Made by a program: the position numbers and the translations under genes. The notes beneath the pieces are model-generated. The model made no database searches and had not been told where the DNA came from. It worked only from the letters and a program-made list of their open reading frames with translations. Below are positions 33,641 to 47,735 of a stretch of DNA of 47,735 bases, piece by piece. Each line of letters starts with the position of its first letter. Position 1 is the first letter of the stretch. Origin of the DNA: Thiotrichales bacterium (GTDB lineage: Bacteria > Pseudomonadota > Gammaproteobacteria > Thiomicrospirales > Thiomicrospiraceae); the NCBI GenBank assembly GCA_016936535.1, contig JAFGXP010000007.1, positions 1-47,735 on the forward strand, read 5' to 3'.

Positions 33641-33663
33641 TAACAATTTGACCGTTTTTTGCC

Positions 33664-34485
33664 TTAGCGATTGAGAGAGACCTCCAGCGGCAATTGATAT
33701 AACTCTCGAAGGTCGGCGGCTTGCAAGATTGCTTTAGGGTCACCTTGCTTTAGAATTTTACCGTTTAGGAAGGTGAGTGCACGTGTGGCGGCGTTGAGAG
33801 CATGCTCCGGATGGTGGGTAGTAAACAGCACGCTGCGTCCATTTTGTTTGAGTTGTTCAATCTTGTCCAATAGCTTAAGTTGATTGCCGTAATCTAATCC
33901 ATTGGTGGGTTCGTCCATTAAGATTAAGCGTGTGTTTTGTGCAAAGGCGCGTGCAATCAATACCATCTGTCGTTGCCCTCCAGACAATTCGGTATAAGGA
34001 CGATGTGCTAAAGCCTCTATTCCTAACCATTCGAGTGCGGCCAACGCTTGCTGTTGTTTATTCGGTGAGGCTTCGATCCAAGAGGCCCGAGGACCTTGCA
34101 GTGCCATCAGCACCATTTGCAGTGCCGAATAGCCAAAAGCTTGTTTGTGATACTGGGGCACATAACTGATTTTTTGTGCAAGGGTTTGCGCGTCAAGTTG
34201 AACTCGATTGACTCCGTCCAGATGAATTTGCCCAGTCTGCACAGGATGTAAACCAAGTAATGTGCGCAATAGCGTGGTTTTTCCACAGCCATTTGGACCC
34301 AGTAACGCGACTACTTCTCCAGCGTGAATCTCAAGATCAATCCCAGAAAAAACAGGGTTTTGGCCATGTCCAGCGCACAGTCCATGGGCGCTTAATAATG
34401 GCTGATTTTGGTGAGTTTCTACATCAGGTAAAGAGCGTGTTTGAGTGCGGTACAGCGGCGTATATTTAAAAAGTTGGGCGAACAT
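33664..34485 (-). CDS. FecE-type ABC transporter ATP-binding protein (orphan partner of the distant permease)
   Basis: About 273 residues. Walker A GPNGCGKTTLL, Q-loop YVPQYHKQAF, signature ELSGGQRQMV, Walker B LILMDEPTNGLDYG, H-loop TTHHPEH. This ATPase class serves iron-siderophore, B12, haem and MolBC-type molybdate importers. No permease is adjacent; the only FecCD permease in the window (40223-41281) lacks an ATPase, so the two probably work together. It follows the mop gene but a terminator separates them, and a perfect 14-base-arm palindrome sits 5 bases before its ATG, so it probably has its own controlled promoter. ATG 34485 is used; TTG 34506 would lie inside the palindrome. Confidence 0.87.
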   Translation of the reverse strand: MFAQLFKYTPLYRTQTRSLPDVETHQNQPLLSAHGLCAGHGQNPVFSGIDLEIHAGEVVALLGPNGCGKTTLLRTLLGLHPVQTGQIHLDGVNRVQLDAQTLAQKISYVPQYHKQAFGYSALQMVLMALQGPRASWIEASPNKQQQALAALEWLGIEALAHRPYTELSGGQRQMVLIARAFAQNTRLILMDEPTNGLDYGNQLKLLDKIEQLKQNGRSVLFTTHHPEHALNAATRALTFLNGKILKQGDPKAILQAADLRELYQLPLEVSLNR

Positions 34486-34489
34486 AACT

Positions 34490-34521
34490 CTATCATTATT
34501 TACCAAAGTAAATAATGATAG
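34490..34521. promoter_or_regulatory. Perfect palindrome upstream of the ABC ATPase gene, probable operator
   Basis: Arms CTATCATTATTTAC (34490-34503) and GTAAATAATGATAG (34508-34521) with a 4-base centre CAAA. The central TACCAAAGTAAA recurs exactly in the promoter region of the TonB receptor operon. It has no G+C-rich stem and no T run, so it is more likely a protein-binding site than a terminator, although as RNA it could also mask the ribosome site. Confidence 0.65.
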
Positions 34522-34524
34522 GAT

Positions 34525-34556
34525 AAAAAAAACCCGAAAGCAATTCGGGCTTTTTT
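34525..34556 (-). terminator. Terminator of mop
   Basis: Stem CCCGAA / TTCGGG (34533-34538 and 34544-34549) flanked by A and T runs. On the minus strand it ends in a run of T. It lies 17 bases past the mop stop. Confidence 0.8.
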
Positions 34557-34572
34557 ATTAAGATCGGAATGA

Positions 34573-34782
34573 TTAGTCCACGGCAACCATGACATTTGAG
34601 GCTTTGATTACGGCATAAGCAGTTTTCCCGACAGCCAGTTCTAAAGCGTGGGCGGAGCTTTTGGTAATGATTGAGATCAGTTCAACGCCAGGTGCAATTT
34701 CAATCACGACTTCTGTGTTGATTGCGCCTTCGTGAATGGCTTTAATTGTTCCCTTAACTTGATTACGTGCGCTGAATTTCAT
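34573..34782 (-). CDS. mop: Mop: single TOBE-domain molybdate/tungstate-binding protein
   Basis: 69 residues: SARNQVKGTIKAIHEGAINTEV, then VELISIITKSSAHALELAVGKTAYAVIKASNVMVAVD. This is the complete molbindin fold; such proteins form hexamers that store molybdate or tungstate in the cytoplasm. AAAGGAT precedes the ATG. It stands just upstream of the ABC ATPase gene, which is the main reason to suspect that the split transporter handles an oxyanion. The ModE-like regulator at 4710-5174 lacks exactly this domain, though a direct partnership is only speculation. Confidence 0.9.
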   Translation of the reverse strand: MKFSARNQVKGTIKAIHEGAINTEVVIEIAPGVELISIITKSSAHALELAVGKTAYAVIKASNVMVAVD

Positions 34783-34960
34783 TTTTTATCCTTTCTTTTT
34801 AATGGCATCTAAGCCATGGTCTCGATGTGAATCTGAATAAATATAACATTAAGGCCATATGTGGCTAAGTATATAGAAAGAAATACAATATCGTGTATTT
34901 CTGTTTGGTATTAAACGTTTAATAGAAAAAAACATCAATACATAGCGCTAATGGAAAATA
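34783..34960. promoter_or_regulatory. mop upstream region with two palindromes
   Basis: No gene is credible here. It holds AGAAATACA-N6-TGTATTTCT (34879-34902, 9-base arms) and a perfect 16-base palindrome TATTAAACGTTTAATA (34909-34924). Between and overlapping them, on the minus strand, TACCAAA (34910-34904) repeats the start of the motif found at the ATPase and TonB promoters. A small ATGGC / GCCAT hairpin lies in the leader near 34802-34817. Probable operator sites for mop; the regulator is unknown. Confidence 0.5.
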
Positions 34961-34967
34961 GAAAAAG

Positions 34968-35001
34968 GCTGTAGAGGGAAACAACGAAAGCCCCCTACAG
35001 C
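34968..35001 (-). terminator. Terminator of the sox-dsrE transcript
   Basis: Arms GCTGTAGAGGG (34968-34978) and CCCCCTACAGC (34991-35001) with one mismatch and a 12-base loop, followed on the minus strand by CCTTTTTCTATTTT. It lies about 120 bases past the dsrE-like stop. Confidence 0.65.
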
Positions 35002-35122
35002 AAACAGACTGAAAAACAGAATGCTATCGATTTTTGCGAAGAACCTTTGGAGTTCGAACGATAGCGCTCTTTTTTTCAAGTGTGATGAGTGGCAATACAT
35101 GGAAATAAATAACGATAAAAAA

Positions 35123-35599
35123 CTATTGAATTTTCAAATAAGCGCTGCCCTCTTTTTGCAATTTTGCCAAGTGAACGACCCCAGAAGGAACCGTTTCCAC
35201 CCCAGGATAAAGGTCTGCTTCGGATAAACCAAAATCCTTAAGCGTATTTGCGCAAACCGCGAGCTTGACTCCTTTTGTGCGTTGTAAGTTCAGCAGACGA
35301 TCATGCAACTCTTTGCGTCGCTCATTAAGACGAGCATCGGTACCGGCCTTAGCCGAGTCTGTTACAAAACGTGCACCCAAGCCAACAAATACAATGCTCA
35401 AATCGTATTCACTGAGGGCATTTTCATATTCGATCAACATATTGTTGACAGAAGTCAGTGTGGCCGAGAAACGGTCTGCTTCCGCAAAATCAACATGATA
35501 GGCGACCTGTTCCAGTTCATTCGCTAAGACCGAAGAACTGACAAGCGGCAAGGCAAAGACCGAACACAGGCCAATAATGGCTAGGGATTTGTTTAACAT
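35123..35599 (-). CDS. Periplasmic DsrE-family protein of the sox cluster
   Basis: 158 residues with a signal peptide (1-26, ending SVLANE). The DsrE/DsrF-like fold is suggested by AYHVDFAEADRFSATLTSVNNML, then DLSIVFVGLGARFVT, and VKLAVCANTLKDFGLSEADL with a single cysteine, ending SGVVHLAKLQKEGSAYLKIQ. Relatives bind or carry sulfane sulfur or are small periplasmic proteins of unknown role. It is last in soxA-soxX-soxH-dsrE. GGAGG precedes the ATG. A sulfur-handling role is inferred from the neighbours. Confidence 0.82.
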   Translation of the reverse strand: MLNKSLAIIGLCSVFALPLVSSSVLANELEQVAYHVDFAEADRFSATLTSVNNMLIEYENALSEYDLSIVFVGLGARFVTDSAKAGTDARLNERRKELHDRLLNLQRTKGVKLAVCANTLKDFGLSEADLYPGVETVPSGVVHLAKLQKEGSAYLKIQ

Positions 35600-35652
35600 G
35601 AGCTGTTTTCCTCCGATGAGTTTGTTAACAGACTAGAACCCGTCTTTATTGC

Positions 35653-36678
35653 TCAAAAAGCATCCATTTCAGCTTGCGTATAAGCAATACTGACAAACTT
35701 GCCAAACTCTTCAAAACCGGCAATCGACTTTGCGTGCTGGTGAATGCGCGGGTCTTTCAGAGCTAATTCTTTGGTTTGTGAAATATCTAAGCCTTCGGCA
35801 ACGCCTTTGACTGCGTTGTCGTAAATGCCATTCATAATGTCTTGATAGGCTTGTAACAGTTCGCCTTTGCCGGGTTTTCCATGTCCTGGTAAAAGCAGGT
35901 GTTCCGGCATTTCGGTTTGAATAATATTCAGGGTTTTGATGTAACCTTTGAATGAAGTCTCACTGGGATTGCCAATCCGTTTTTCCATAATGACATCGCC
36001 AACATATAGGGCTTTATCGTTGACGATCTCAATCATAATATCGACAGGGGAGTGGGCTTGACCGTAGCTATGAACTTTTAATTGAACGCCGCCAAAATCA
36101 AAAATCTGGCCATGCGTCACGCCCTCGGTGGGGGCGACCACTTGCGTTCCTTTTACAGCACCCTCTGTGGCTTTCATCATCTGCTCAAGCCATTCAGCAC
36201 CCACGGCATTTTCAATGGCGATTTTGGCATCGGGGTGGGCATAAATGGGGGCCTCGGGAAATGCTGTTTTAAAGGCGCCATTGCCTAACCAATGATCGCC
36301 GTGATAATGGCTGTTAAAAACGGCAATTACGGGTTGATTAAATTGTTTTTTGATAGCACGAAGTGCCATCTCACCGATGTGAACCGACGTTCCTGTATCC
36401 AGAACCACAATGCCTTTTGGGGTTTTGACAAAGTAAATATTGGCAAAGAACCCCTGATTTTCATGGGTTGGCCAAGCGCCACGGGCCGCCAGCAGATACA
36501 GATGTTCGGTGATTTTCTGGGGTGTTGCATCGGCCACTTTTAGGGAGTCAACCCCAGCATAGGCCGCGTTAAAGGGCAGGTTGGTACAAAGGGTTGCTAG
36601 TGCCGTCACGCCAAAAAGACGTTTGAGAAGGTCACGTCGAACATGGTCAATACGTTGTTGGGTATTACTTAATTGCAT
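35653..36678 (-). CDS. soxH: SoxH-like metallo-beta-lactamase-fold hydrolase, Tat-exported
   Basis: 341 residues. A twin-arginine-like signal (RRDLLKRLFGVTAL, residues 14-27) is followed by the MBL domain. Metal motif NSHYHGDHWLGN (HxHxDH, about 143-150), HSYGQAHSPVD, YVGDVIMEKR and LLPGHGKP supply further ligands. SoxH and related quinoprotein-relay MBL proteins occur in sox clusters; their reaction is unresolved, although thiol or persulfide hydrolysis is suggested by other MBL families. It lies between soxX and the dsrE-like gene with short gaps (38 and 53 bases), so it is in the same operon. Confidence 0.83.
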   Translation of the reverse strand: MQLSNTQQRIDHVRRDLLKRLFGVTALATLCTNLPFNAAYAGVDSLKVADATPQKITEHLYLLAARGAWPTHENQGFFANIYFVKTPKGIVVLDTGTSVHIGEMALRAIKKQFNQPVIAVFNSHYHGDHWLGNGAFKTAFPEAPIYAHPDAKIAIENAVGAEWLEQMMKATEGAVKGTQVVAPTEGVTHGQIFDFGGVQLKVHSYGQAHSPVDIMIEIVNDKALYVGDVIMEKRIGNPSETSFKGYIKTLNIIQTEMPEHLLLPGHGKPGKGELLQAYQDIMNGIYDNAVKGVAEGLDISQTKELALKDPRIHQHAKSIAGFEEFGKFVSIAYTQAEMDAF

Positions 36679-36716
36679 CGCATTTCTCTTTTATCAATCA
36701 AGATCTTGTTAAGGGA

Positions 36717-37445
36717 TTAAGGGTGGCTCAGTTTTTTGACTTCGCCATCTACTTTGGGATTGTTCACCGGTGACTTAGGGTCTAACAAAAAAGCGGTAAT
36801 GTCAGCAACCTGTTCTGCGGTCAGCAGATGGCCTTCCCCACTGCCGAAACGAGGCATCAACGAGCAAGGGTTATAGGCTTTGGCATTAAAAATGTATTCA
36901 TAAGTGTATTTTTGTATGGCGGCACTTTGGCCTCGCAGCTTGCCATAGTTGGTCAAGCTTGGCCCCATATTGCCATGCTGTGGAAAGTTGGGATCTACTG
37001 CATGGCAAGCGTAACAGTTGGCGCCATTTGGTTTGCTTGGGTCATCGGCATCAACAAACCCCGGAAAGCCAATTCGGCCACCGTGCGCACCCTCAACCCA
37101 CATTTGTCCTTTCTGCCAATCTCCCATGTATTGGCCATCTTTTGGCAAGGTGATATTGGCTTTTTCAAGTTTGCGGATGGCATTGGCTTGTTCGATTGAG
37201 GGCTTATCCAAGGTTTGGTTACAGATTTTTAGGGTTGGATCGGTAAAACGTTTCCATTCATCTGGATGGTTGACCAGAAAACTGCTTTTTACCGCTTCGA
37301 GAAATTTCGCTTCGCTCACGGCTTTACCGCGATCCAGATTGTCGTCATTTGCCGCAACCGGTAGGCTGATGCCTGCCAAACACAGGCTGGTGGAAAGTCC
37401 AATCAAGATGGGACGAAATGAATATTGGCAAAAATTGAATTGCAT
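36717..37445 (-). CDS. soxX: Thiosulfate-oxidising cytochrome subunit SoxX
   Basis: 242 residues with a signal peptide (about 1-32, ending LPVAAND). The haem-binding motif is NCYACHAVDP (about 144-148) and the distal ligand methionine is in NPCSLMPRFGSGE, close to the SoxX pattern with GPSLTNYGKLRG between. The region before the haem (about 33-135) is longer than in short SoxX proteins and contains an extra cysteine (LKICNQT) that could pair with the one in NPC. SoxAX couples thiosulfate to SoxYZ and takes up two electrons. 45 bases downstream of soxA. Confidence 0.92.
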   Translation of the reverse strand: MQFNFCQYSFRPILIGLSTSLCLAGISLPVAANDDNLDRGKAVSEAKFLEAVKSSFLVNHPDEWKRFTDPTLKICNQTLDKPSIEQANAIRKLEKANITLPKDGQYMGDWQKGQMWVEGAHGGRIGFPGFVDADDPSKPNGANCYACHAVDPNFPQHGNMGPSLTNYGKLRGQSAAIQKYTYEYIFNAKAYNPCSLMPRFGSGEGHLLTAEQVADITAFLLDPKSPVNNPKVDGEVKKLSHP

Positions 37446-37490
37446 AAAAGTCTCTTTCGATTCATTACATTTAAAAGGGTGATAACGCCG

Positions 37491-38378
37491 CTAAGCTCGA
37501 GGTTTAATGCCCGGTACAGCGATTTTCTCGTCGCTTTCTGACGCCTTTTTCACTTGATACAAAATCAGCGCAGCATCGATTTCGGAGCCGGTTTTCAACC
37601 AAGGTAAGCGCATTGCTAATAGACAGCGCTCGTTACGCCACCATTGTGTGCGAACATTGCCATCTTTATTTACATAGGCTGGAAACGCTCCCATGACTTT
37701 ACCGGCGCGTTCGGGATCGGTCATAACTGGCAGTTCTACGCCCCGTAACACTCGGCCGGGTACAGCGTGACAGTGCGCACAAGAGAGGTCCATCGCTCCC
37801 ATTCGATGCCAAAAAGTTTTTTTTCCAAGTTCATAAGCGTGCTGTTCTTTGGGATGATCCAGTGCGATTTGAAATGGCATTTCACTCGATTTAGATGCGA
37901 CAAACGTCGCCAATTGCGCTAAAGGTGAGACGCGATTGTCCTCTTCGGCCGCATTCAAATAATGGATGTTTAAATACTGCTCTTGAATTTGCTTATCGTC
38001 TAAACCTTGTAGGGTTTTCATGCAGGTCATTAAGCGTCCCTCTAAGCTTTCAACGCGATCGGTATCGCTGAAATAGCGCGGCATTTGGGCGTAAGCGCCT
38101 TCTAAAACGCCAGGACCTAAGCCAAAATCACACTTCTCCAGACTGGCATTTTTAGGCCCCGCTTTTTTAAAGAAAAGGTCTTCGCCATCATCCACCCAAA
38201 ACTCTCCTGGATTCCCGTCGGCAAGTGCATCCCGGTAAGCGGAGAATTTTGCATCATCGGATGCTTGGGCAAACCCTGTGACAACCGTGGTTGAGCATAA
38301 AAAAACCAACCAAGCCTTGCGGTGGGTTGATGCCAACCCTTTCGGCGAAGGACTGGCAGATTTTGACCGTGTTTTCAT
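37491..38378 (-). CDS. soxA: L-cysteine S-thiosulfotransferase subunit SoxA (monohaem)
   Basis: 295 residues, signal region about 20-40 (ending GFAQAS). Only one haem motif is present, CAHCH in DLSCAHCHAVPGRVL. The N-terminal haem of dihaem SoxA is missing, while the disulfide-forming cysteines EKCDF and MTCMK remain. The active-site cysteine is in NERCLLAMRLPW, which carries the persulfide. SoxAX joins thiosulfate to SoxYZ in the periplasm. AAGGAG precedes the ATG. First gene of soxA-soxX-soxH-dsrE; a sigma-54-like promoter and repeats lie upstream, next to a sigma-54 activator gene. soxYZ, soxB and soxCD are not in this window. Confidence 0.94.
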   Translation of the reverse strand: MKTRSKSASPSPKGLASTHRKAWLVFLCSTTVVTGFAQASDDAKFSAYRDALADGNPGEFWVDDGEDLFFKKAGPKNASLEKCDFGLGPGVLEGAYAQMPRYFSDTDRVESLEGRLMTCMKTLQGLDDKQIQEQYLNIHYLNAAEEDNRVSPLAQLATFVASKSSEMPFQIALDHPKEQHAYELGKKTFWHRMGAMDLSCAHCHAVPGRVLRGVELPVMTDPERAGKVMGAFPAYVNKDGNVRTQWWRNERCLLAMRLPWLKTGSEIDAALILYQVKKASESDEKIAVPGIKPRA

Positions 38379-38431
38379 CGATTTCTCCTTCTAAATTCAA
38401 TCGTTATTTCTTTGATTACATAACGAATAAA

Positions 38432-38447
38432 CCAAGAGATATGCCAA
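38432..38447 (-). promoter_or_regulatory. Possible sigma-54 promoter of soxA
   Basis: On the minus strand TTGGCATATCTCTTGG has GG and the -12 TTG at the right spacing for -24/-12 (consensus TGGCAC-N5-TTGC), but the -12 C is G. The predicted start near 38421 gives a leader of about 43 bases. The adjacent sigma-54 activator gene supports it; the imperfect -12 weakens it. Confidence 0.4.
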
Positions 38448-38599
38448 GTTTGTCGATTGATGTAATTGAACAATCAATTAAATTAAATAAATCTTTAATA
38501 ACAATGGGTTATGTATGATTTTCTGTAGGTTTTTTATCTCGCTACAGTGACTTGGTTCGGGCTTAAATCAGCCGATTCATTTCGGCTACACTGGCAAAA
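38448..38599. other. soxA upstream spacer
   Basis: AT-rich intergenic DNA between the putative soxA promoter and the repeat cluster. No gene or clear site seen; consistent with DNA looped between an activator site and a sigma-54 promoter. Confidence 0.3.
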
Positions 38600-38640
38600 T
38601 GCAATTGGAATTGCAGATTGCAATCGTCGTTTTGCAATCG
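38600..38640. repeat. Cluster of TTGCAA-type palindromes, possible activator sites
   Basis: TGCAATT-GG-AATTGCA (38600-38615), the perfect palindrome GATTGCAATC (38616-38625) and a further TTGCAATCG (38632-38640) follow one another. They lie about 160-200 bases upstream of the possible soxA -24/-12 element, a usual distance for binding sites of sigma-54 activators. Confidence 0.45.
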
Positions 38641-38649
38641 GCTAGAAAA

Positions 38650-38669
38650 AAGCCCACAAAAGTGGGCTT
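38650..38669 (-). terminator. Terminator of the sigma-54 activator gene
   Basis: AAGCCCAC / GTGGGCTT with loop AAAA, followed on the minus strand by TTTTTCTAGC. A 15-base unit TGGGCTTAAAAAAGA is repeated in tandem at 38663-38692, overlapping it. Confidence 0.65.
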
Positions 38670-38746
38670 AAAAAAGATGGGCTTAAAAAAGATGAGTGCA
38701 TAAAATGAGCGAGGGCTTGCAGCGCTAAAATCCAATGAATTATTCC

Positions 38747-40129
38747 TTAATTTGATGCTGGACGAAGCAATTTCATTTTTCGCCATAAGGTGCTCGGATC
38801 GATGCCCAAGGCCTGCGCCGCTTTCTGTTTATTGCCGGCAAATTTTTGCAAACTGTATTCAATCCATAAACATTCCACCTCTTGTAGCGTGGCGTGTTCT
38901 GGAAAAAAAGGGTGCGCATCAAGAGGGCGATTAGGTAATTGGATCGCGGTGTTGAAGAGTTCATTGGGTAAATCGGTTACCTCAACGCGTTTTGATTGGC
39001 AGCTCAGCAGAATGCGTTGAACAACATTTTCGAGTTCGCGGATATTGCCTGGCCAAGGATATTTCAATAGCGCATCCAGTACCCCAGGACCACAAGACTC
39101 AACGGACTTTCCCAGTTTTGGGGCATGTTTGAAAATAAAGCGCGCAGCAAGGTGTGAAATATCTTCCAGACGCTCGCGCAGTGGAGGTATTTCAATAGGA
39201 AAAACATGGAGTCGAAAATAAAGGTCTTCGCGAAATGTACCCTCATCCACCAGTTGGCGTAAGGGTTGGTTGGTGGCAAAAATCAGCCGGACATCAACCT
39301 TTACCTCGCTGCGGGCACCCACTCTGAGCAGCGTTCGTTCTTGAATAAATTGCAGCAAGCGGACTTGTAATTCAGCCGAGGCACTGTTGATTTCGTCCAA
39401 GAAGAGCGTGCCGCCATGCGCGGCTTCAAGCAGCCCCGCTTTGCGCTGTGTGGCTCCAGTAAAAGCCCCTTTTTCATAGCCAAACAGTTCGGACTCAAGA
39501 AGTGTCGGGCTTAAAGCGCCGCAATTGACGGTAAGAAAAGGCCCTTCTTTACGTTCACTGTGTTGATGGACATAGCTGGCCAAAACATTTTTACCCGTGC
39601 CCGTCTCACCAATAAGAAGTACAGGAAGCTCGGTGTGTTGAATCTTTTGCAGTTGGTGTAAAGTGTGGCGCATCGCTGGACTCTCGGCAACCGGATGGTC
39701 TGGGTGAGTCTGCGTGTTCAGCGCTTGTTGATAAAAGCGATTGCGGTGTTCAATAAAGCGCACGAGGCGTTGCAAGCTCTGCTCTAGTTCATTTGGATTG
39801 AATGGCTCGAACACTACATCAAAAGCTCCTTGAGTAAAGGCTTGTGCCACAAGTCTGGCTTGGTTTTCGGCCATAATAAACAGCTGCAAAAGCGCGGGGT
39901 TTGATTGAGTCAGCTCGCCGCCCAAATGAAAGAGGGGTCCCCCGAAGGAATCATTCTCCAGGAAGACGGCATCGGCGGATTTCAGTTGTGCTTTTTCAAA
40001 CCGAAGGCGCTGTAACAGGTAAGCGCTGTTGGGATAGGCGATGAACTGAAGGTGTGAGGCCACTGAGCAATTTTGCAGCCTGTTCAGTATTCGTTCCGGA
40101 ACAATTAGTGTGATTTTGTCTTGCGTCAT
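38747..40129 (-). CDS. Sigma-54-dependent transcriptional activator with degenerate receiver-like domain
   Basis: About 460 residues from MTQDKITLIVPERIL. Residues 1-130 look like a worn receiver domain: VFLEND and FDVVFEPFNPNELEQSL keep its shape, but the usual KP lysine is Glu and no clear phospho-aspartate is seen. The AAA+ domain has Walker A GETGTGKN (174-181), the sigma-54 contact loop GAFTGA (221-226), Walker B GGTLFLDE and the arginine region FREDLYFRL. A Fis-type helix-turn-helix ends the protein (NKQKAAQALGIDPSTLWRKM). AGGA precedes ATG 40129. Located directly upstream of soxA, its most likely target. It starts 94 bases after the permease gene with no clear terminator, so read-through is possible. 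Confidence 0.87.
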   Translation of the reverse strand: MTQDKITLIVPERILNRLQNCSVASHLQFIAYPNSAYLLQRLRFEKAQLKSADAVFLENDSFGGPLFHLGGELTQSNPALLQLFIMAENQARLVAQAFTQGAFDVVFEPFNPNELEQSLQRLVRFIEHRNRFYQQALNTQTHPDHPVAESPAMRHTLHQLQKIQHTELPVLLIGETGTGKNVLASYVHQHSERKEGPFLTVNCGALSPTLLESELFGYEKGAFTGATQRKAGLLEAAHGGTLFLDEINSASAELQVRLLQFIQERTLLRVGARSEVKVDVRLIFATNQPLRQLVDEGTFREDLYFRLHVFPIEIPPLRERLEDISHLAARFIFKHAPKLGKSVESCGPGVLDALLKYPWPGNIRELENVVQRILLSCQSKRVEVTDLPNELFNTAIQLPNRPLDAHPFFPEHATLQEVECLWIEYSLQKFAGNKQKAAQALGIDPSTLWRKMKLLRPASN

Positions 40130-40222
40130 TACGGTCCTAAAAGTAAAAAACGATTTCATTATTTCTTTTTGGCTATAACGAGTAAGGCCAAGCGCCAAGT
40201 GTCGCATCCTTTTAAAGGCGAA

Positions 40223-41281
40223 TTACGTGTGCCAGCCCTTTTTGGCGTGTTTAAGCGCCCAAGCAAAGACGGGCAGTCCAATCAAAGCAGTCAGAATTCC
40301 GAGCGGAATTTCAATGCTAAGCGCTAGGCGCGCAAGGTTATCAACCAACAACAGGTAGCTTGCGCCTAGCAGTGCGGAAGCGGGCAGAAGCAAGCGATTG
40401 TCCGCCCCGAGTAAGAGGCGAGCAATGTGTGGAATCACCAATCCCACCCAGCCAATCATTCCGCCCAAGGTAACGGTTAACGCACTTAAAAAAGTCGCGA
40501 TGAGAATAATAATAAGACGTTTTTGTTCGACTTGAATGCCCAGACTGCGTGCCTCATCATCGCCTAAACTGAGGACATTCAAGACATGACCTTGAATGCT
40601 GATTAATAAGATGCCCAATAAAACAAAAGGCACTAACCAATACAGAAGGTCGCCACTAACATTGGCCAGAGAGCCCATCAACCAATAGGTGATTGCCGGC
40701 AGTTTGCTGTAAGGATCGGCCACATATTTAATCACTGAAAGCAGAGCTGCAAAAAGAGCGCCAGTAATCATTCCCCCCAAAACCAAAATGATCATGTTCT
40801 GTTTGAGCTCTCCTTTGGCCAGCAACATTGCCATGCCGACCGCCGCCAACCCAAAGACAAAAGTCAGTGCCTGCATAACCCACAGCTGGTCAGAAAGCAA
40901 AATGCCAAGCGAGGCGCCAAAGGCGGCTCCCGAAAGCACACCTAAGATTCCGGGCGACACCAATGGGTTCATAAACAACGCCTGAAAGGCGGCGCCGCTA
41001 ATCGCCAAGGAAGCGCCAATCAGCATGGCAGCAAGAACTCTGGGCAGACGAACATCCCATAAAATACTCATCAAAACAGGATTCGCTTCTCCTGAAAGAA
41101 TGCCAACGGCTTTTAAGAGCTCCGCTAAAGTGCCCAATGGCGCAAAGTCATAACGCCCTAAACTTAAAGAGAGCAGCATGAGGCCAAGCAGCAGCAAGCT
41201 GAGTAACAGCAAAACCTGTCCGGCACTGAAGTAGTTCAGTAAAAGCGGTTGCGTTTTTGAAGGCGATGTTTTAAGCGGCAT
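40223..41281 (-). CDS. FecCD-family ABC transporter permease
   Basis: About 352 residues from MPLKTSPSKTQP. Nine or ten hydrophobic segments in the BtuC/FecCD pattern: SILWDVRLPRVLAAMLIGASLAISGAAFQALFMNPLVSPGILGVLSGAAFG, ITYWLMGSL, LNVLSLGDDEARSLG (the ATPase-coupling loop) and GMIGWVGLVIPHIARLLLGADNR. It imports a chelated metal, cobalamin or oxyanion from a periplasmic binding protein. The start overlaps the end of the monooxygenase gene by 11 bases. Last gene of the TonB-receptor operon; its ATPase is not here but probably the one at 33664-34485. Confidence 0.92.
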   Translation of the reverse strand: MPLKTSPSKTQPLLLNYFSAGQVLLLLSLLLLGLMLLSLSLGRYDFAPLGTLAELLKAVGILSGEANPVLMSILWDVRLPRVLAAMLIGASLAISGAAFQALFMNPLVSPGILGVLSGAAFGASLGILLSDQLWVMQALTFVFGLAAVGMAMLLAKGELKQNMIILVLGGMITGALFAALLSVIKYVADPYSKLPAITYWLMGSLANVSGDLLYWLVPFVLLGILLISIQGHVLNVLSLGDDEARSLGIQVEQKRLIIILIATFLSALTVTLGGMIGWVGLVIPHIARLLLGADNRLLLPASALLGASYLLLVDNLARLALSIEIPLGILTALIGLPVFAWALKHAKKGWHT

Positions 41282-42287
41282 AAAATTGGTGCATGAGAGG
41301 TTGCCAAACGTCGTGTTGAAAACGTTTGAGTTGTTCATAACGATGTTGATGATTTTGTGTCAGAGGATTGAGCGCAAGATGTTTGACGCCCAGGTCAATC
41401 AACGCTAGCGTTTTTTGTCGAACTTCCTCTGGCGTACCGCACAGCATCATCGGCAAAAGTTCTTCTGGTGTAAGCTTGGCCATTGGACCAGGTTCCTTAC
41501 CCCACAGTTTGGCCTTCTCTTCCCGGAACTGGACGATATGCTCCAATGCGAGCTGTCGAGCCACTGCACTGTTGTCGTCGATAAACAAGCCACGTGCCAC
41601 CATTAAGCTCGGTGGCAAGGGTGAATGTTTTTTATACAGACGAATCTGTTGCTGAATTTTGTCAAGGCCCCAAAATTGAGCGCTCATTAATCCCATTCGA
41701 TTTTGCGCAGCCATATTGACCGTTGTTTCTTCTGCCGTAGCAACAAACAACTGTCCGGAGTTCAGCTTGACTTTAGGCTGTAAGTCAATCTGTTGCCATT
41801 GATAATGTTCACCCTTATGCGAAATTGGCTTTTTACTGTTCCACAGTTTCATCATCGCAGGCAAGGCTTCATTCATCCGCGCGCGACTCAGATCTTTGTC
41901 GGCTTGAAAGGCCGCATTCTGCGCTTCAAAAGGCCCGCCTTTGGCAAATCCAAGCAGCAAACGATTGGGATAAAGGCTTTGCAGTACGGCAATCTGTTCA
42001 CTGATTTCTAGGGGGTTATGAAAGCCAATCAGCAGAGCAGAGGCGCCCACTTTGAGTGTTTCGGTGTGGGCTAAAAAATGCCCTATAAGCGTTAAGGGCG
42101 AGGGTGTTAAGCTTTTTTCATTAAAGTGATGTTCGGTTATCCAAGCATTTTTAAATCCTAAAGCTTCAAGCTTTGGCAGCAATTCGGTATAGGTTTTATA
42201 AGTTTCGGTTGGGGTTTGATGCATTTCTGGTGTCAAATGCAACATTACGCCCAGCTCAGGCTGATGATTGGAACAGAGCATGCTCAT
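41271..42287 (-). CDS. Luciferase-like (LLM) flavin-dependent monooxygenase in the uptake operon
   Basis: 338 residues, luciferase-like TIM-barrel family: ELGVMLHLTPEMHQTPTETY, then GFKNAWITEHHFNEKSLTPSPL, LKVGASALLIGFHNPLEISEQIA, and YPNRLLLGFAKGGPFEAQNAAF. The EHHF motif and the GPF segment are typical. Such enzymes use FMNH2 or F420; members of the family attack alkanesulfonates, chelators (EDTA and NTA monooxygenases) and other compounds. No signal peptide, so it acts in the cytoplasm on whatever is imported or on flavin-linked reduction. Its start overlaps the binding-protein stop (ATGA) and its end overlaps the permease start, so it is an integral part of the operon. Confidence 0.88.
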   Translation of the reverse strand: MSMLCSNHQPELGVMLHLTPEMHQTPTETYKTYTELLPKLEALGFKNAWITEHHFNEKSLTPSPLTLIGHFLAHTETLKVGASALLIGFHNPLEISEQIAVLQSLYPNRLLLGFAKGGPFEAQNAAFQADKDLSRARMNEALPAMMKLWNSKKPISHKGEHYQWQQIDLQPKVKLNSGQLFVATAEETTVNMAAQNRMGLMSAQFWGLDKIQQQIRLYKKHSPLPPSLMVARGLFIDDNSAVARQLALEHIVQFREEKAKLWGKEPGPMAKLTPEELLPMMLCGTPEEVRQKTLALIDLGVKHLALNPLTQNHQHRYEQLKRFQHDVWQPLMHQFYAA

Positions 42288-43360
42288 GATGACAGTCCTT
42301 TTAATAGGTGGTGCGCTTGCGCAGCCGAGAGATCAATCGAAAAAAAGTCGGCAAAAAAGCGTTGAGTTTGTGCAACCGTGTCGAGCGCAGCGATTTCCGG
42401 TACTTGCGGATAGAGCTTCTGCATCAACCATTGTGCGGCCAATAAACGTAAAAAAGAGGGCGGGCGATCCAGCCACCGAAAAGGAATTTGTGGGGCAAAA
42501 AATACCTGCTGATTTTGCACCGCCTTCAAACCGCGCCAAGCAGAAAGATGGTAAACCTGATCATAAAATGCTTTTTCTTGAGTCACTATCGCATCCGGGT
42601 TGTAACTCAGAAGCTGTTCTAAATTAATCGACACCTTGCCAAAGCGTGATTGCTTGGCTTGCTCTGCCGGGCATTGATGAGGATTGATGGCACCTGCCCA
42701 AGGCAGGGTTTCTGCATGAATTGAGCCGCGGCATTCACTGGCTAAACCATTTGGATCTTGCGCGTAATAAACGGTTTTTAATGGAATATTGCGGGTTTTT
42801 AGCAGATCCAGCAGGGCCGATTGCTGAGAAAGAAGCTGTTCAAAATGTTGAGCCAATCGTTCACCGCGTTCGGTTTTTCCTAACCATTGTCCGAGGCTTC
42901 TCAAAGCATGCGGATAGTCGCTCAACTGGTCTAATTGCAGATGACAAACCGGCATGCCCATTTTTTGAATCATCACTTGGCGATCGGTATGCACCGTCGC
43001 ACCAGAGAGAATAACCAGTTCGGGTTTGGTAGCAATCAGCTGCTCAAAGTTTGGCGTTTGACCTTGGCCAAACCAGCCTCCCAGTACCGGTAACTCAAAA
43101 ACACGATCGGGAAAAATACCTTTGGCCTGCGCAGGCGGTGGAAAATTCCAGCCAACCATTTTTTCGGGTGCCATTGCAACCAACAAATAACTGACCACCG
43201 GATTGGCGCCATAGACCCGTTGTGGAATGTCTGATAGGGCACAGTCGGTTCTCTCGTTGATGGCAAAAACTTGAGGACTTTGCGTGGCCAAAAAGACACT
43301 CAGAACCGTTTGTAACAGAACAAGGAAATGAGCGCGCAGCCTAAGTTTAAAATTGGACAT
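42284..43360 (-). CDS. Periplasmic binding protein of a FecB/BtuF-type ABC importer
   Basis: 358 residues with a signal peptide (about 1-33, ending QVFAIN). Class III binding-protein features: RVYGANPVVSYLLVAMAPEKMVGWNF, LPVLGGWFGQGQTPNFEQLIATKPELVILSG, then VSINLEQLLSYNPDAIVTQEKAFYDQVY and WLDRPPSFLRLLAAQWLMQKLYP. Ligands of this class include ferric chelates, haem, cobalamin and, for MolA, molybdate/tungstate; I cannot tell which from sequence. GGAG lies ten bases before the ATG. It overlaps the upstream receptor gene by 14 bases and the downstream monooxygenase gene by 4. Confidence 0.88.
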   Translation of the reverse strand: MSNFKLRLRAHFLVLLQTVLSVFLATQSPQVFAINERTDCALSDIPQRVYGANPVVSYLLVAMAPEKMVGWNFPPPAQAKGIFPDRVFELPVLGGWFGQGQTPNFEQLIATKPELVILSGATVHTDRQVMIQKMGMPVCHLQLDQLSDYPHALRSLGQWLGKTERGERLAQHFEQLLSQQSALLDLLKTRNIPLKTVYYAQDPNGLASECRGSIHAETLPWAGAINPHQCPAEQAKQSRFGKVSINLEQLLSYNPDAIVTQEKAFYDQVYHLSAWRGLKAVQNQQVFFAPQIPFRWLDRPPSFLRLLAAQWLMQKLYPQVPEIAALDTVAQTQRFFADFFSIDLSAAQAHHLLKGLSS

Positions 43361-45302
43361 AATAATCGACTCCGTATGTCAGGCCTTCACTTGGAAAACC
43401 GTAAACCGTTTCATAGGGTTGGTCGCCGAGGTTTTTGGCTGAAAACAGCAGTTTGTGTTGCATGCCTTCGGTTTTAAAAAGATAAGCGAGAGCCGCATCG
43501 TAGCGAGTAAAACCGCCGGCCGTGCCAGTTCCCGCCTGATTGGCAGAAAGGTATTCCCCCATATTTTGAGCCCCTAAACTGTACTGCCACTGGTTGGTTA
43601 AGTAATGCAAGCGTGCGCGGACCAATGTTTCTGGAACATTGACCACGCCGTTAGGAGTTTTGCCAGGTTTTACTTGGCTGAACCCTAACTCGTAATGCAG
43701 CTTGGCATAACGTCCTTTAAGCTCCAATTCCATTCCATAATTTCGCCAGTCTGCATTTGCATAAACATTGATTTTGCTATTTGCGTCCTGTGGATCGTCA
43801 ATTTGAGCAGCAATATAAGCGCCGTTATCGAGTTGCTCATCAAAGCCGGTTAAGGTGGTTGTGAAATGGCCGTGTGCCGCTTGCCACCAGTGATGTTGCC
43901 ATCCCAGTTCGGTCCGTAAGCGCTGCTCTTTGGCCAATTGCCCATCGTTGGCGCTATAGACGCTAAGTGGCTGTTGTTCGGTGTAGAGGCTTCGCGCAGT
44001 GAGCAAGCTTTGGGGCGTTACTTGGAAACTGGCACCCAGTGCAGCCGTAAGGAGGGGGTCGAGACGAACGTCTTCAATCAAGCGGCGTTGTTTGCCAACC
44101 TGTTCATAGCCTTTATCAATGAATCTTTGATCAGCGCGTAGGCCAAAATCCAGTGAAGCACGTTGCGTGCGGAACTCGTTTTGTAAATAAAGTGCATGAA
44201 TGTGCTCTTTTCGCGCAAATCCAGGGTAGTACAACATCCCCGTTGGATTGTCGTAGTGCATAAAGTTATAACCGAACCGCAGTAGGTTTTTGCCTGAAAA
44301 CAGTGAGCGGTTCAGTGCATGACTCAAATCCACATTCGCAAAGTTTTCTTCGGTACGCTCTTCTTTATAGGCATTAACTTGGCTGTGGCTAAATTGTTGT
44401 AAGGTGGCGTCACTCTGACTGTAAGCAAAGCGCACAGCACTGGTAGAGTCTTCATCCCAGTAATAGCCCGCTTGGCCATTGAGCATACGCATCTGCATCG
44501 GTTTATAGCGCCATTTTGCATCGCTGACCCCAGAACTCGGCAGCCCGCGTTGTAGCGCTTGTTCTGCGTCGGCATGCCAAAAGTTCAGCTGCCAATCCAG
44601 TTTTTGATGATAACCTTGCAATTTCCATAAACCGACTTGGCGCTGATAGTCATTAAAATAGTCGCTTGGCCCTTCTTTTTGTTGATGTGCTAACAGCACT
44701 CGGCCGGCAACCGCTTCATTAAATGCATGATTGTGACTGGCATCGACTTCAAACTGTTGGTAAGAACCGATTTTGCTGTGCAACTCCGTTTGTGGCTGGT
44801 CAAAGGCACTGCGAGTTTGAATAACGATAAATCCTTCGGTTCGCGAATTGGTCATGGGCCCGATAATTGAAGTTAAAGGGCCCAGATTCAATGCACTGGC
44901 ATCGCGAACAACCGTCATGGATTCAATCGCGTTAACCGGCAGTTGCATTAGCACTTTAGAGGCTGCTGGAGGTGGGAGATAAGCACCGTCTAAAATGATA
45001 CCTAAATTAGAACCGGCACGAATACTGGCAAAATAAGGTGATTTTCGTCCTTGCGTTTGCGTAAAAGCGCCGGTCGCGTAATCCAGCATTTCATAAGCAT
45101 TGGCAACCGGCAGACGACGAAAATCTTCACGAGTAAAGCGTTGACTGTTGGTAATAAAACTTTTCGGTTGGGTAAAAACATCCTCTGTTTGCAAGCCTTT
45201 GCTGCGTTCAACAGGAACCACGTCTAAGGTAGCGCTCAGTGCAATGCCGCTGAGAAGACTTAGGCTAAAGGTTAACGAAATTCGGTATAAGTAAAGTGAC
45301 AT
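43347..45302 (-). CDS. TonB-dependent outer-membrane receptor (second)
   Basis: 651 residues with a signal peptide (1-23, ending GIALSAT). Plug domain about 45-170: FTREDFRRLPVANAYEMLDYATGAF, SIRAGSNLGIILDGAYLPPP and AIESMTVVRDASALNLGPL. A 22-strand barrel pattern follows, ending in an aromatic residue (VDYYVQF) as needed for outer-membrane insertion. A clear TonB box is not obvious. It differs strongly from the first receptor, so they are not a recent duplication and may take different forms of the substrate. 18 bases downstream of the first receptor gene. Confidence 0.9.
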   Translation of the reverse strand: MSLYLYRISLTFSLSLLSGIALSATLDVVPVERSKGLQTEDVFTQPKSFITNSQRFTREDFRRLPVANAYEMLDYATGAFTQTQGRKSPYFASIRAGSNLGIILDGAYLPPPAASKVLMQLPVNAIESMTVVRDASALNLGPLTSIIGPMTNSRTEGFIVIQTRSAFDQPQTELHSKIGSYQQFEVDASHNHAFNEAVAGRVLLAHQQKEGPSDYFNDYQRQVGLWKLQGYHQKLDWQLNFWHADAEQALQRGLPSSGVSDAKWRYKPMQMRMLNGQAGYYWDEDSTSAVRFAYSQSDATLQQFSHSQVNAYKEERTEENFANVDLSHALNRSLFSGKNLLRFGYNFMHYDNPTGMLYYPGFARKEHIHALYLQNEFRTQRASLDFGLRADQRFIDKGYEQVGKQRRLIEDVRLDPLLTAALGASFQVTPQSLLTARSLYTEQQPLSVYSANDGQLAKEQRLRTELGWQHHWWQAAHGHFTTTLTGFDEQLDNGAYIAAQIDDPQDANSKINVYANADWRNYGMELELKGRYAKLHYELGFSQVKPGKTPNGVVNVPETLVRARLHYLTNQWQYSLGAQNMGEYLSANQAGTGTAGGFTRYDAALAYLFKTEGMQHKLLFSAKNLGDQPYETVYGFPSEGLTYGVDYYVQF

Positions 45303-45320
45303 CAGGTGCTTTCCAATTTA

Positions 45321-47339
45321 CTAAAACGCATAGTTTAGGTTGGCCCAAATTGTGCGACCCGGCATAGGGTCGCCCTCGGCAATCTCGTAGTTTTTGTCTA
45401 AGAGGTTTTTCAAAACCAAGTTAGCTTGCCATTTTGGGTTGATGGTCCAGTGAGCGCGGCTATTAAGTAAAACAAAGCCTGCGGTGGGTCGCGTGCCATC
45501 AAAGCGCGTGTCAGCTGAGGATTGCGCTTGAATATCCAGACCAAACTGCCATGCGCGAGCCGCAAACCAATCGAGGTTCAGGTTTAAACGATGCTCTGGC
45601 GAAAAGGTGGCAACAATGTTTGAATCTGCATAGTCGCGTTTGAGGTAGCTGTAGTTGGCCCCTAAATCGAATGCCGAATTAAGGACCCATTGCCACTCCA
45701 GTTCCACGCCTTGGCTGCTGGCGTTGCCGACATTTTGATTTTGATCGCACTGGGTGCCACCGCAACGGTCACTGGCAACTGCCACGGTTTCAATGGCATC
45801 CTGAATCCGGGCGTAAAACAGGTTACCGCCGTAGCGAAAGGCGCCATGTTGAGCTTTCAGCGCAATTTCATAGTGCAGCGCTTGCTCTGCCTGGAGATCA
45901 AGGTTTGGGATAGCTTGTCCCAAACGGTACGAAACTTGATCTTTGATGTTCGGAAAACGTGATTTTAGACTCAGACCCGCGCTCAGTTGTTGTGCGCCAA
46001 AATCGTGGCGAACTTTGATTTGCCAGTTTCCTTGATTTTGATGACCTTGCGGTTCCGTTGCGGCATCACGGTCATCCGTTTTGGTTAATTGGTACTGATC
46101 CTGTCGATACCCCAGCGTCAATTGAGTGTTTGGGGTTAAGGTAATTTGGTCTTCAAGAGCCAAACTAAACGTTTCTGCCTCAAAAGTCCGCCAGCGGTTA
46201 TCTAAATCTTTGTTATCACTGTCAAGATCGCGCTCTTTGTGCTGATCGACTTTAAGACTAAGAGCGCTCTTAAAATGATGCTGCCCCAAGGGGACGCCAA
46301 ACTCTAAGCCACCACCAATCGATGTATCGTTGTATTGAGAGCGGAACGCATAGCCCTTTGTTACGGTGCGATAGCGATCATCATCATAAGAGTTCAACGC
46401 ATTATCAAATTGGTCGTGATAAAGGCGAGTTTTGAGATAAGAGCCTTTGCGCCATGCGTTAAAGCGGGTCATCCCAACGAAATACAAGCTGCGCTTATCC
46501 CACTGTGGCCAATCCCAATAACGAACCAAATCTTGCGAGCCTGCATAGGGACTGGATTCTTTTGCGCCTTCGGTTTGGTAATAACTTAAGGCGTATTCAT
46601 CGGTTGCGTTGGGAGTAAAGCCGAGTTTGAAGTTTCCACTGAGATTTTCGTTTCCAGAGCGTAAACGTTCACCTTTGGGTTGATATACGGTGCCATTATT
46701 GACTTGGGGTTCAAAGGCTTGCGATAGCGGAAAATTTTCGGTTTGCACAGCGCTTAGGCCGGCTTGTAGGTAAAGTTTTTCGGATAAAACTGCGCCGATA
46801 CGAACCGATTGGCTGTCTTGAAACTTCCCTTTATCTCCTGCTTCAATCGCTGCGCTGATTTCGCCTTCGAAGGATTTTTGGGGGCGCAAGGTCAGCAGGT
46901 TGATCGACCCACCCATATTGTTTGGCCCTTCAAGTAGAGAACCCAAACTTTTCGTGACTTCAATTTGGCTTAAATCACCAAGCATAAAACGCCCAAGATC
47001 GACATTGCCATCATAGGGAACATAAATCGGAATACCATCTAGGTTGAGTGTGATTTGCCGTGAATCAAATCCTCGAATATTGGCGCGAACTTCGGCTCGT
47101 CGTCCGCCGACTTGCAGGCTTACTCCTGGTTCCTTAGCAATCGCTTCCCCCACATGATTCATGCCACTGGCTTTACGTTCATTTAAGTCAATCGGTGAAT
47201 AGTCAGGTATTTCGCCCTCTGCAAAAACATGGATTGAGCCTAGGTTAAACGCCTGTTCATTAGCAAATGCAGTCGTGCCACTAAAGAACAAGCCTAGCAG
47301 CACCCAAGGCGTATAAGGGCGTATAAGACGGTTAGACAT
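45321..47339 (-). CDS. TonB-dependent outer-membrane receptor (first gene of operon)
   Basis: 672 residues with a signal peptide (about 1-26, ending TTAFANE). A candidate TonB box lies in LGSIHVFAEGE (about 33-43). Plug domain: GMNHVGEAIAKEPGVSLQVGGRRAEVRANIRGFDSRQITLNLDG, LSQIEVTKSLGSLLEGPNNMGGSINLL. Barrel to the end at TIWANLNYAF, a terminal Phe. An extracellular loop has two cysteines (DRCGGTQCDQ). CGGAG precedes the ATG. It is driven by a strong sigma-70 promoter about 140 bases upstream and begins the operon receptor-receptor-binding protein-monooxygenase-permease. Substrate unknown. Confidence 0.92.
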   Translation of the reverse strand: MSNRLIRPYTPWVLLGLFFSGTTAFANEQAFNLGSIHVFAEGEIPDYSPIDLNERKASGMNHVGEAIAKEPGVSLQVGGRRAEVRANIRGFDSRQITLNLDGIPIYVPYDGNVDLGRFMLGDLSQIEVTKSLGSLLEGPNNMGGSINLLTLRPQKSFEGEISAAIEAGDKGKFQDSQSVRIGAVLSEKLYLQAGLSAVQTENFPLSQAFEPQVNNGTVYQPKGERLRSGNENLSGNFKLGFTPNATDEYALSYYQTEGAKESSPYAGSQDLVRYWDWPQWDKRSLYFVGMTRFNAWRKGSYLKTRLYHDQFDNALNSYDDDRYRTVTKGYAFRSQYNDTSIGGGLEFGVPLGQHHFKSALSLKVDQHKERDLDSDNKDLDNRWRTFEAETFSLALEDQITLTPNTQLTLGYRQDQYQLTKTDDRDAATEPQGHQNQGNWQIKVRHDFGAQQLSAGLSLKSRFPNIKDQVSYRLGQAIPNLDLQAEQALHYEIALKAQHGAFRYGGNLFYARIQDAIETVAVASDRCGGTQCDQNQNVGNASSQGVELEWQWVLNSAFDLGANYSYLKRDYADSNIVATFSPEHRLNLNLDWFAARAWQFGLDIQAQSSADTRFDGTRPTAGFVLLNSRAHWTINPKWQANLVLKNLLDKNYEIAEGDPMPGRTIWANLNYAF

Positions 47340-47389
47340 AACAACTCCGTTCAGCGTAGATCGGCTCAGATGAGGTGAATCTGCAGCCT

Positions 47390-47401
47390 TTATTTACTGT
47401 G
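47390..47401 (-). promoter_or_regulatory. Operator-like motif, second copy in the receptor-operon leader
   Basis: CACAGTAAATAA on the minus strand differs at one base from CAAAGTAAATAA in the palindrome upstream of the ABC ATPase gene. It lies in the 5' leader of the first receptor gene. Confidence 0.4.
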
Positions 47402-47457
47402 ATACATAACGATAGACGAAAAAGAACTTGCAAACTGCAATCAGAATGAAGTCTTTG

Positions 47458-47469
47458 TTTACTTTGGTA
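47458..47469 (-). promoter_or_regulatory. Operator-like motif shared with the ABC ATPase promoter
   Basis: TACCAAAGTAAA on the minus strand is an exact 12-base match to the centre of the palindrome at 34490-34521. It lies about 10-20 bases past the predicted transcription start of the receptor operon, a good position for repression. Confidence 0.6.
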
Positions 47470-47484
47470 TATATCGAATTGCGT

Positions 47485-47513
47485 ACTATATTCAGCGCGC
47501 TTTTGGCTGTCAA
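47485..47513 (-). promoter_or_regulatory. Sigma-70 promoter of the TonB receptor operon
   Basis: On the minus strand a consensus TTGACA (47513-47508), a 17-base spacer and TATAGT (47490-47485). The start near 47478 leaves a leader of about 140 bases. Such a strong promoter usually needs a repressor, fitting the operator-like motifs just downstream. Confidence 0.8.
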
Positions 47514-47586
47514 GTTGCAAAAACACCGGTTCCGCAAAAAGCGGGCAGATTTGGCAAAATTTAATGCTTTTTGCCAAGCAAAAAGC

Positions 47587-47614
47587 TTGCAATTCGTTTT
47601 TGCCTCACTATAAT
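47587..47614 (+). promoter_or_regulatory. Promoter of tRNA-Asn
   Basis: TTGCAA (47587-47592), a 16-base spacer and TATAAT (47609-47614), about 35 bases upstream of the tRNA. Confidence 0.75.
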
Positions 47615-47648
47615 ACGCATCCGTTCACGACGTTTTACGTCTGATCAC

Positions 47649-47724
47649 TCCCCTATAGCTCAGTCGGTAGAGCAACGGACTGTTAATCCGTGTGTCCCTG
47701 GTTCGAGCCCAGGTGGGGGAGCCA
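47649..47724 (+). tRNA. tRNA-Asn (GTT anticodon)
   Basis: 76 bases with encoded CCA. Acceptor stem TCCCCTA / TGGGGGA pairs with one G-T; the D arm is GCTCAGTCGGTAGAGC, the anticodon loop ACTGTTAAT with anticodon GTT, and the T loop GGTTCGAGCCC. The gene appears complete and ends 11 bases before the window edge. Confidence 0.96.
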
Positions 47725-47735
47725 AATTTTAAACC

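Follow-up and report, generated by a model that had tools for sequence, protein, structure and literature searches.

On the minus strand of a 47,735-nucleotide stretch of a Thiotrichales bacterium genome (assembly GCA_016936535.1, contig JAFGXP010000007.1, positions 1 to 47,735; hereafter the window), genes for two TonB-dependent receptors, a periplasmic binding protein, a luciferase-like flavin monooxygenase and a FecCD-type permease are followed, ~5.5 kb further downstream, by mop and a FecE-type ATP-binding cassette ATPase gene, with a sigma-54 activator gene and soxA-soxX-soxH-dsrE in between (33664–47339, Table 1). Do the two outer parts form one split uptake system, what would it carry, and what place do the sox genes have in it? 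Conserved gene adjacency in relatives and ModE-type operators on both parts argue for one system, and we consider it quite likely that the cluster as a whole provides ModE-controlled, TonB-dependent acquisition of molybdenum, possibly tungsten, with the second sox set (sox2) perhaps serving as a backup for SoxCD.

All genes named in the original prediction, which was made from the sequence of the window, were present as open frames. The receptor 1-to-permease genes are packed, with slight overlaps or gaps of at most 18 bp (taking the likely permease start), and lack an ATPase gene; the orphan ATPase gene lies beside mop (33664–34782; both with domain matches over cut-off), and the activator and sox genes occupy 35123–40207 between the two parts. 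Gene calls rest on domains above curated cut-offs; for the permease, activator and ATPase the likely starts differ from those of the longest frames (Table 1). The window permease was the only one of four FecCD matches in the genome (2.12 Mb, 49 contigs, 97.5% complete) without an ATPase match within ~1 kb; each of the other three (two weak, all over cut-off) had one, in a comparison that started from the FecCD matches, the permease neighbours of the genome's remaining ATPases lying outside it. A scan of eight cluster proteins gave no ModA, ModB or ModC component over cut-off.

A search of 113 genomes for the oxygenase gene, the window's own genome included, gave matches in 25. Thirteen of these were dropped because their matches were weak (best expectation value, E, between 3e-18 and 1.3e-4) and pointed to other luciferase-like proteins. 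Orthologs (E 6e-105 or better, 49–66% identity) were present in 11 relatives, and 20 kb around each of them was fetched. The gene order was the same in all 11 loci: receptor 1, (receptor 2, in five loci), binding protein, oxygenase, permease, ATPase. Receptor 1 orthologs, always upstream of the binding-protein gene, were 49–65% identical to the window protein, and the ATPase after the permease was in every case an ortholog (50–67% identity) of the window's orphan ATPase rather than a different one. In locus L058 the matches to both receptors were fragmented into pieces. A twelfth relative, G008, had permease and ATPase, with the permease at a contig edge. The contiguous arrangement of oxygenase, permease, mop and ATPase genes that would be expected of an undivided system was found in G050 and G059 (2 of 11 loci), where mop lies between permease and ATPase; modEABC adjoins the transport system in G050, and the G059 operon also contains ModD. 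The G059 locus continues past the ATPase gene with activator, soxA, soxX, soxH and dsrE, so that the window differs from G059 mainly by the position of the mop-ATPase pair.

The relatives of the genome appear to make up a family of the Thiomicrospira/Hydrogenovibrio type. Standalone mop orthologs were present in 11 of 61 other family members, 10 of them with the permease; mop alone was found in one genome, the permease alone in two and neither in 48 (Fisher p = 8e-9, uncorrected for kinship and genome incompleteness). The table omits Mop domains within longer frames and distant standalone matches of G074 and G089. With the ATPase adjacency and the operators described below, this co-occurrence supports the proposal that mop, the ATPase and the receptor operon belong to one split system, and neither of the two findings named in the original prediction as refuting it was made.

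The operator-like sequence that had been noticed in both parts proved to be real. The window regions have in common a 28-bp palindrome (matrix consensus ATCGTTATGTACTTAAGTACATAACGAT) that agrees in length and in nearly all letters with the Escherichia coli ModE consensus, published as ATCGNTATATA-N6-TATATANCGAT (PMC545781). Only the regions upstream of the receptor genes in the 11 relatives went into the matrix, the window's sites not being used; its seed was picked by eye from a listing that also contained the window regions. The five best matches in the 47.7-kb window, two of them before receptor 1 and one each before the activator, soxA2 and ATPase genes, scored 18.8–29.0 bits, versus 5.6 bits for the sixth. 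In 300 simulated windows the best score averaged 7.1 and reached 19.6 at most; three of the window sites exceeded all of these, and the remaining two (19.6 and 18.8) were at or just under the simulated maximum. As the E. coli modA site is weak as a control for the matrix, the published consensus was used as well. By this consensus alone, four of the five sites were in the window's top five (16, 16, 15 and 15 of 20), tied with a place at 35089; the activator's operator was absent from the top nine matches, and 3 of 200 simulated windows reached 16. Operator 1 starts 7 bp downstream of the -10 element in the best sigma-70-type promoter, a position that would suit a repressor.

Sites of this type recurred at molybdenum genes elsewhere. 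Within the family, sites scoring more than the 99th percentile of shuffles, 9.5 bits, were found before modE in 11 of 12 loci and before modA in 8 of 12. At each of the 12 receptor upstream regions, no more than 2 of 100 shuffles equalled the score of the published consensus. The sole matrix match above 4 bits in a 4-kb E. coli modE-modA region lay 45 bp before modA. Four of five Campylobacterota loci (L038, L040, L042 and L044) had 24–29 bit sites before the receptor or the oxygenase gene. In Aliarcobacter, the receptor-oxygenase-binding protein-permease-ATPase series (L039, L044) or a receptor-oxygenase pair (L038) stands directly after mod genes, a linkage that is independent of gammaproteobacterial kinship. 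ModE-type sites and mod-gene neighbours together lend the molybdenum/tungsten reading independent support, and as judged from sequence, uptake of molybdenum (or tungsten) under ModE is quite likely.

The window's genome encodes ModABC, SoxC and ModE itself (L118:5606-6472), the last with HTH_1 over cut-off and two TOBE/Mop domains; the ModE-specific models stayed below cut-off for this protein (TIGR00637, 80 vs 98.5; NF007957, 162 vs 369). The genome was scanned with a sequence model made from 20 sites of relatives, 150 of 644 first-look candidates being scored. At E of 10 or better, 12 distinct places were listed, five of them in the window; 10 of the 12 were at the window cluster or other molybdenum loci, including one between modC and a TauE-type gene. 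The genome's own modA site (14.3 bits by the matrix) was outside this list. Two ModE-type sites lie between the soxC region and moaA on contig C16 (G000:C16, L171:3510-3635), moaA being followed by moaE- and moeA-like genes by reading; this placement would link cofactor synthesis with the molybdenum sulfane dehydrogenase. On contig C42 (G000:C42, L172:3600-7261), two such sites precede the gene for an Alginate_exp-type porin, which is followed by modA2, modB2 (just below its model cut-off, 174.8 vs 182.6) and modD. An anion porin controlled by ModE would add a second route across the outer membrane.

Comparison with solved structures related the inner-membrane part to a known molybdate importer. 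The best match of the permease was MolB (HI1471, 2nq2_A; 8.3e-72, the next being 1.9e-47), and for the ATPase MolC (2nq2_C, 3.4e-40) came second, after a P-glycoprotein of which no single stretch passed. The window system has, then, both a permease of the MolB kind and a MolC-like ATPase paired with it. The binding protein resembles MolA (3psa) only distantly, MolA ranking fourth by profile and by fold; the structure model of the binding protein gave the fold and no indication of substrate. Haemophilus influenzae MolBC-A (HI1470-HI1472), for which a low-affinity role is reported, likewise combines a FecCD-type permease, a FecE-type ATPase and a periplasmic binding protein, whereas the window system adds TonB receptors, a flavin monooxygenase, Mop and ModE-type operators. 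ModABC with ModE, present elsewhere in the same genome, has the same regulator and operator type; it differs in being another transporter class without outer-membrane receptor or oxygenase. TonB-dependent uptake systems for siderophores, zinc, nickel and lanthanides have the receptor, binding protein and FecCD/FecE order in common with the window cluster, which differs from them by its ModE-type sites and lack of a Fur signal. In H. influenzae, too, HI1470-1472 may have a TonB receptor gene nearby.

The usual view is that molybdate gets through the outer membrane by diffusion. Among the open-licence literature matches listed, we found no TonB-dependent molybdenum route and no report of a system joining TonB with molybdenum or ModE with sox, and a 2024 review of TonB transport has no word beginning 'molybd'. 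The inner-membrane part is not new, since the permease is nearest to MolB and a FecCD-type molybdate importer, MolBC-A, was already known. With a ModE-controlled receptor system, an orphan receptor family found in two phyla would gain a concrete class of substrate, and the use of a molybdophore or of thiomolybdate becomes testable.

The oxygenase is probably cytoplasmic, by its lack of an evident signal peptide. Its EHHF and other residues were invariant across 18 sequences, and its structure model was closest to bacterial luciferases, a match of fold only that indicates no substrate. All 22 NCBIfam matches were below their cut-offs, giving no named subfamily. The oxygenase family did not prove to be widespread: none of 397 other sampled genomes of its own phylum had a match at E 1e-22 or better. 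The fold is common to EmoA, NmoA and SsuD, which are ethylenediaminetetraacetate/nitrilotriacetate and sulfonate monooxygenases. There are luciferase-like monooxygenases that use reduced flavin mononucleotide (FMNH2) and oxygen to open a chelator or a C-S bond. That the window oxygenase is a carrier-opening enzyme is a tentative proposal. An S-adenosylmethionine (SAM) methyltransferase gene was seen near the oxygenase or its transporter in L036, L039, L040 and L043; L043 (Propionibacteriaceae) also has a radical-SAM gene of the HmdB/BioB kind. In Calothrix (L048:9878-11896), nifH and a nifE-like fragment come immediately after a truncated relative of the oxygenase gene; FecCD, binding-protein, modABC-like and mop genes are present within the same 20 kb.

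SoxA is encoded twice in the genome, in the window and on contig C22. Of 112 relatives, four have window-type SoxA (80–84% identical), and each of these also has the permease and mop. In all five genomes with soxA2, an activator gene stands directly before soxA2, mop lies within ~7 kb, and a ModE-type site (22.4–29.5 bits) precedes soxA2 whatever the gene order; no site at the C22 SoxA gene was among the places listed in the genome scan. The original prediction had treated the sox cluster as an interruption, which these data do not uphold: the block holds a second soxAX set together with an activator of its own and is no random interruption. No receiver domain was matched in the domain scan of the activator. 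TGGCAC (TGGCAT in the window) occurs once in each soxA2 upstream region, 19, 22, 10, 20 and 21 bp before the operator, as the candidate -24 element of a sigma-54-type promoter, and TTGCA/TGCAA repeats lie roughly 100–190 bp further upstream in all five. Similar repeat clusters were also found at window positions 13866, 20118, 29033 and 47515; those upstream of receptor 1 span 47515–47590, and the activator may act there too. SoxYZ, SoxB and SoxCD are not in the block, which consists of soxA, soxX, a soxH-like gene and dsrE (35123–38378). SoxC is a molybdenum enzyme; soxC is on C16 near moaA, followed by a gene that is soxD by position only, without a model match. A role of sox2 as a molybdenum-sparing branch is speculative, and we rate it just short of an even chance.

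There is a parallel in Azotobacter vinelandii, where ModE sites are described in the promoters of vnfA1 and anfA, the activators of the alternative nitrogenases (PMC9542535). There, as in the window, ModE-type sites stand before a sigma-54 activator gene, and the A. vinelandii activator drives the metal-sparing enzyme; in the window a second SoxAX set would take the place of the nitrogenase as target, and soxA2 has an operator of its own.

In the explanation that we favour, the TonB receptors would carry the metal across the outer membrane, probably as a complex (a chelate or other poorly diffusible form) rather than as free oxyanion, and the binding protein with the MolBC-like permease and ATPase would move it on across the inner membrane. 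In the cytoplasm, the flavin monooxygenase may modify the co-imported carrier, most likely by oxidizing it, with release of the oxyanion, a reaction that is speculative, and Mop would buffer the metal. We infer that molybdate-bound ModE would sit on the operators when metal is replete and turn the receptor, ATPase, activator and soxA2 genes off; under scarcity the block would open, and the activator would drive soxA2X2-soxH-dsrE from the sigma-54-type promoter, with sox2 serving as backup for the molybdenum enzyme SoxCD. That uptake and sox genes lie under the same predicted switch suggests one coordinated response to molybdenum shortage. In its most specific form, a molybdenum-scarcity programme among sulfur oxidizers in which ModE derepresses TonB import of metallophore- or thio-molybdate with FMNH2-monooxygenase carrier opening, together with a SoxCD-free SoxAX-SoxH-DsrE branch for sulfane sulfur, the explanation is offered only tentatively; the sox2 branch would then be the sulfur-cycle counterpart of alternative nitrogenases. 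If true, the linked sox2 block would show molybdenum supply steering sulfur oxidation. This could bear on the extracellular sulfur that SoxCD-containing Hydrogenovibrio are reported still to make (PMC5733100).

Several observations weigh against this explanation. The single genome-scan sites are statistically weak (E 0.006 to 1.9), a score of at least 15 of 20 against the published consensus occurs in 19 of 200 simulated windows, and the E. coli modA site scores 6.7 bits, reached by 36 of 1000 simulations. Before the L039 receptor the score is only 10.8 bits. At the window's mop the best operator match is poor, at 2.7 bits, and only 6 of 12 mop genes have a site exceeding 17 bits within 250 bp. 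Permease occurs without standalone mop in G057 and G060, and mop without permease in G021. Among solved structures, the binding protein is nearest to 4pag, from Sulfurospirillum, and not to MolA. On the sox side, the activator gene has its own strong site only in the window and G023 (2 of 5), the sigma-54-like promoter has a poor -12 part and, in G023, a different spacing, and a block without SoxYZ or SoxB cannot be a whole pathway.

An uptake system for an iron-siderophore, heme or cobalamin that merely lies near molybdenum genes would account for the matches of receptor 1 to siderophore/heme receptor models and of the permease and binding protein to iron/B12 models, all below cut-offs, and for the pyochelin receptor being the only solved match of a receptor. 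Fur control of the receptor promoters was tried as a candidate and rejected: the Fur consensus was no better than shuffles at all 12 upstream regions (18–96 of 100 shuffles reach its score), where the ModE consensus stood out each time. With MolB the nearest solved permease by a wide margin and the molybdenum-gene linkage recurring in two phyla, we regard this alternative as improbable. A real ModE-controlled importer whose cargo is tungstate (or vanadate) instead of molybdenum is also unlikely. It is favoured by the reported binding of tungstate to MolA as well (PMC4031551) and, for tungstate or vanadate, by the nif neighbours of the Calothrix oxygenase relative; the sites at moaA beside soxC point to molybdenum instead.

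The sox block might be untied to molybdenum, having its promoters in common with the uptake genes by neighbourhood only and an ordinary sulfur role. The missing SoxYZ and SoxB, the purely positional nature of the evidence for its role and the restriction of soxA2 to 5 of the 113 genomes searched, all related, fit such a reading, which we hold to be somewhat unlikely given an operator before soxA2 in every one of these genomes, the best site of the genome scan, set against a C22 SoxA gene without a listed site, and the constant proximity of mop. Another permease as the partner of the ATPase, with the receptor operon as a remnant in decay, seems very improbable. The mop-ATPase pair is indeed detached in the window, with its own promoter region, yet all frames are open over their full length, operators stand on both parts, and the ATPase orthologs cited above stand next to the permease elsewhere. 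A different ATPase for the window permease was likewise unsupported, the other FecCD matches having their own and the pairing holding in 11 of 11 relatives, as was a split by chance or decay, given the adjacency conserved in relatives. We retain ModE-controlled molybdenum acquisition as the favoured explanation.

Table 1. Features of the uptake and sox2 cluster, in window coordinates.
Feature	Position	Strand	Remarks
sigma-70 promoter TTGACA-17-TATAGT	47485..47513	-	11/12; best in 33500-47735
ModE-type operator 1, before receptor 1	47451..47478	-	18.8 bits; 15/20 to published consensus
ModE-type operator 2, before receptor 1	47386..47413	-	19.6 bits; 15/20; genome scan E 0.055
TonB-dependent receptor 1 (plug + barrel)	45321..47339	-	PF07715, PF00593 over cut-off
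TonB-dependent receptor 2 (plug match only)	43347..45302	-	PF07715 over cut-off
Periplasmic binding protein	42284..43360	-	PF01497 (Peripla_BP_2)
Luciferase-like flavin monooxygenase	41271..42287	-	PF00296 (Bac_luciferase), 5.5e-49
FecCD-type permease	40223..41338	-	PF01032; likely start 41281
ModE-type operator, before sigma-54 activator	40155..40182	-	21.6 bits; genome scan E 0.13
sigma-54 activator	38747..40207	-	PF00158, PF02954 (AAA+, Fis-type helix-turn-helix); likely start 40129
TTGCA/TGCAA repeat cluster, possible activator-binding site	38600..38637	-	5/5 genomes, simulated p 0-0.04 each
sigma-54-like -24 element TGGCAT, imperfect -12	38431..38446	-	candidate; one such element per genome in 5/5, 10-22 bp before the operator
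ModE-type operator, before soxA2	38400..38427	-	29.0 bits; 16/20; best in genome scan, E 0.006
soxA2	37491..38378	-	TIGR04484, 188.3 vs cut-off 110
soxX2	36717..37445	-	TIGR04485, 85.6 vs cut-off 61
SoxH-like metallo-hydrolase, metallo-beta-lactamase fold	35653..36678	-	PF00753; TIGR04558 below its cut-off
DsrE-family protein	35123..35599	-	PF02635; N terminus signal-like by reading
mop, single-domain molybdate/tungstate-binding, 69 amino acids	34573..34782	-	TIGR00638 over cut-off
Terminator-like hairpin, mop/ATPase interval	34533..34549	-	listed on + strand; minus reads same stem, then T run
ModE-type operator, before ATPase gene	34492..34519	-	25.0 bits; 16/20; second-best in genome scan
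FecE/MolC-type ABC ATPase	33664..34506	-	PF00005; likely start 34485

With the hairpin between them and an operator belonging to the ATPase gene itself, mop and the ATPase gene are neighbours and not clearly one operon; in the promoter/terminator scan, promoter- or terminator-like sites were no commoner than in shuffles. Weak ModE-type sites, by chance or through an unknown link, were also seen before RND-type efflux genes (L173:6167-6194, L174:4530-4549). A tRNA-Asn gene lies at 47649–47724, at the contig end, beside the receptor promoter.

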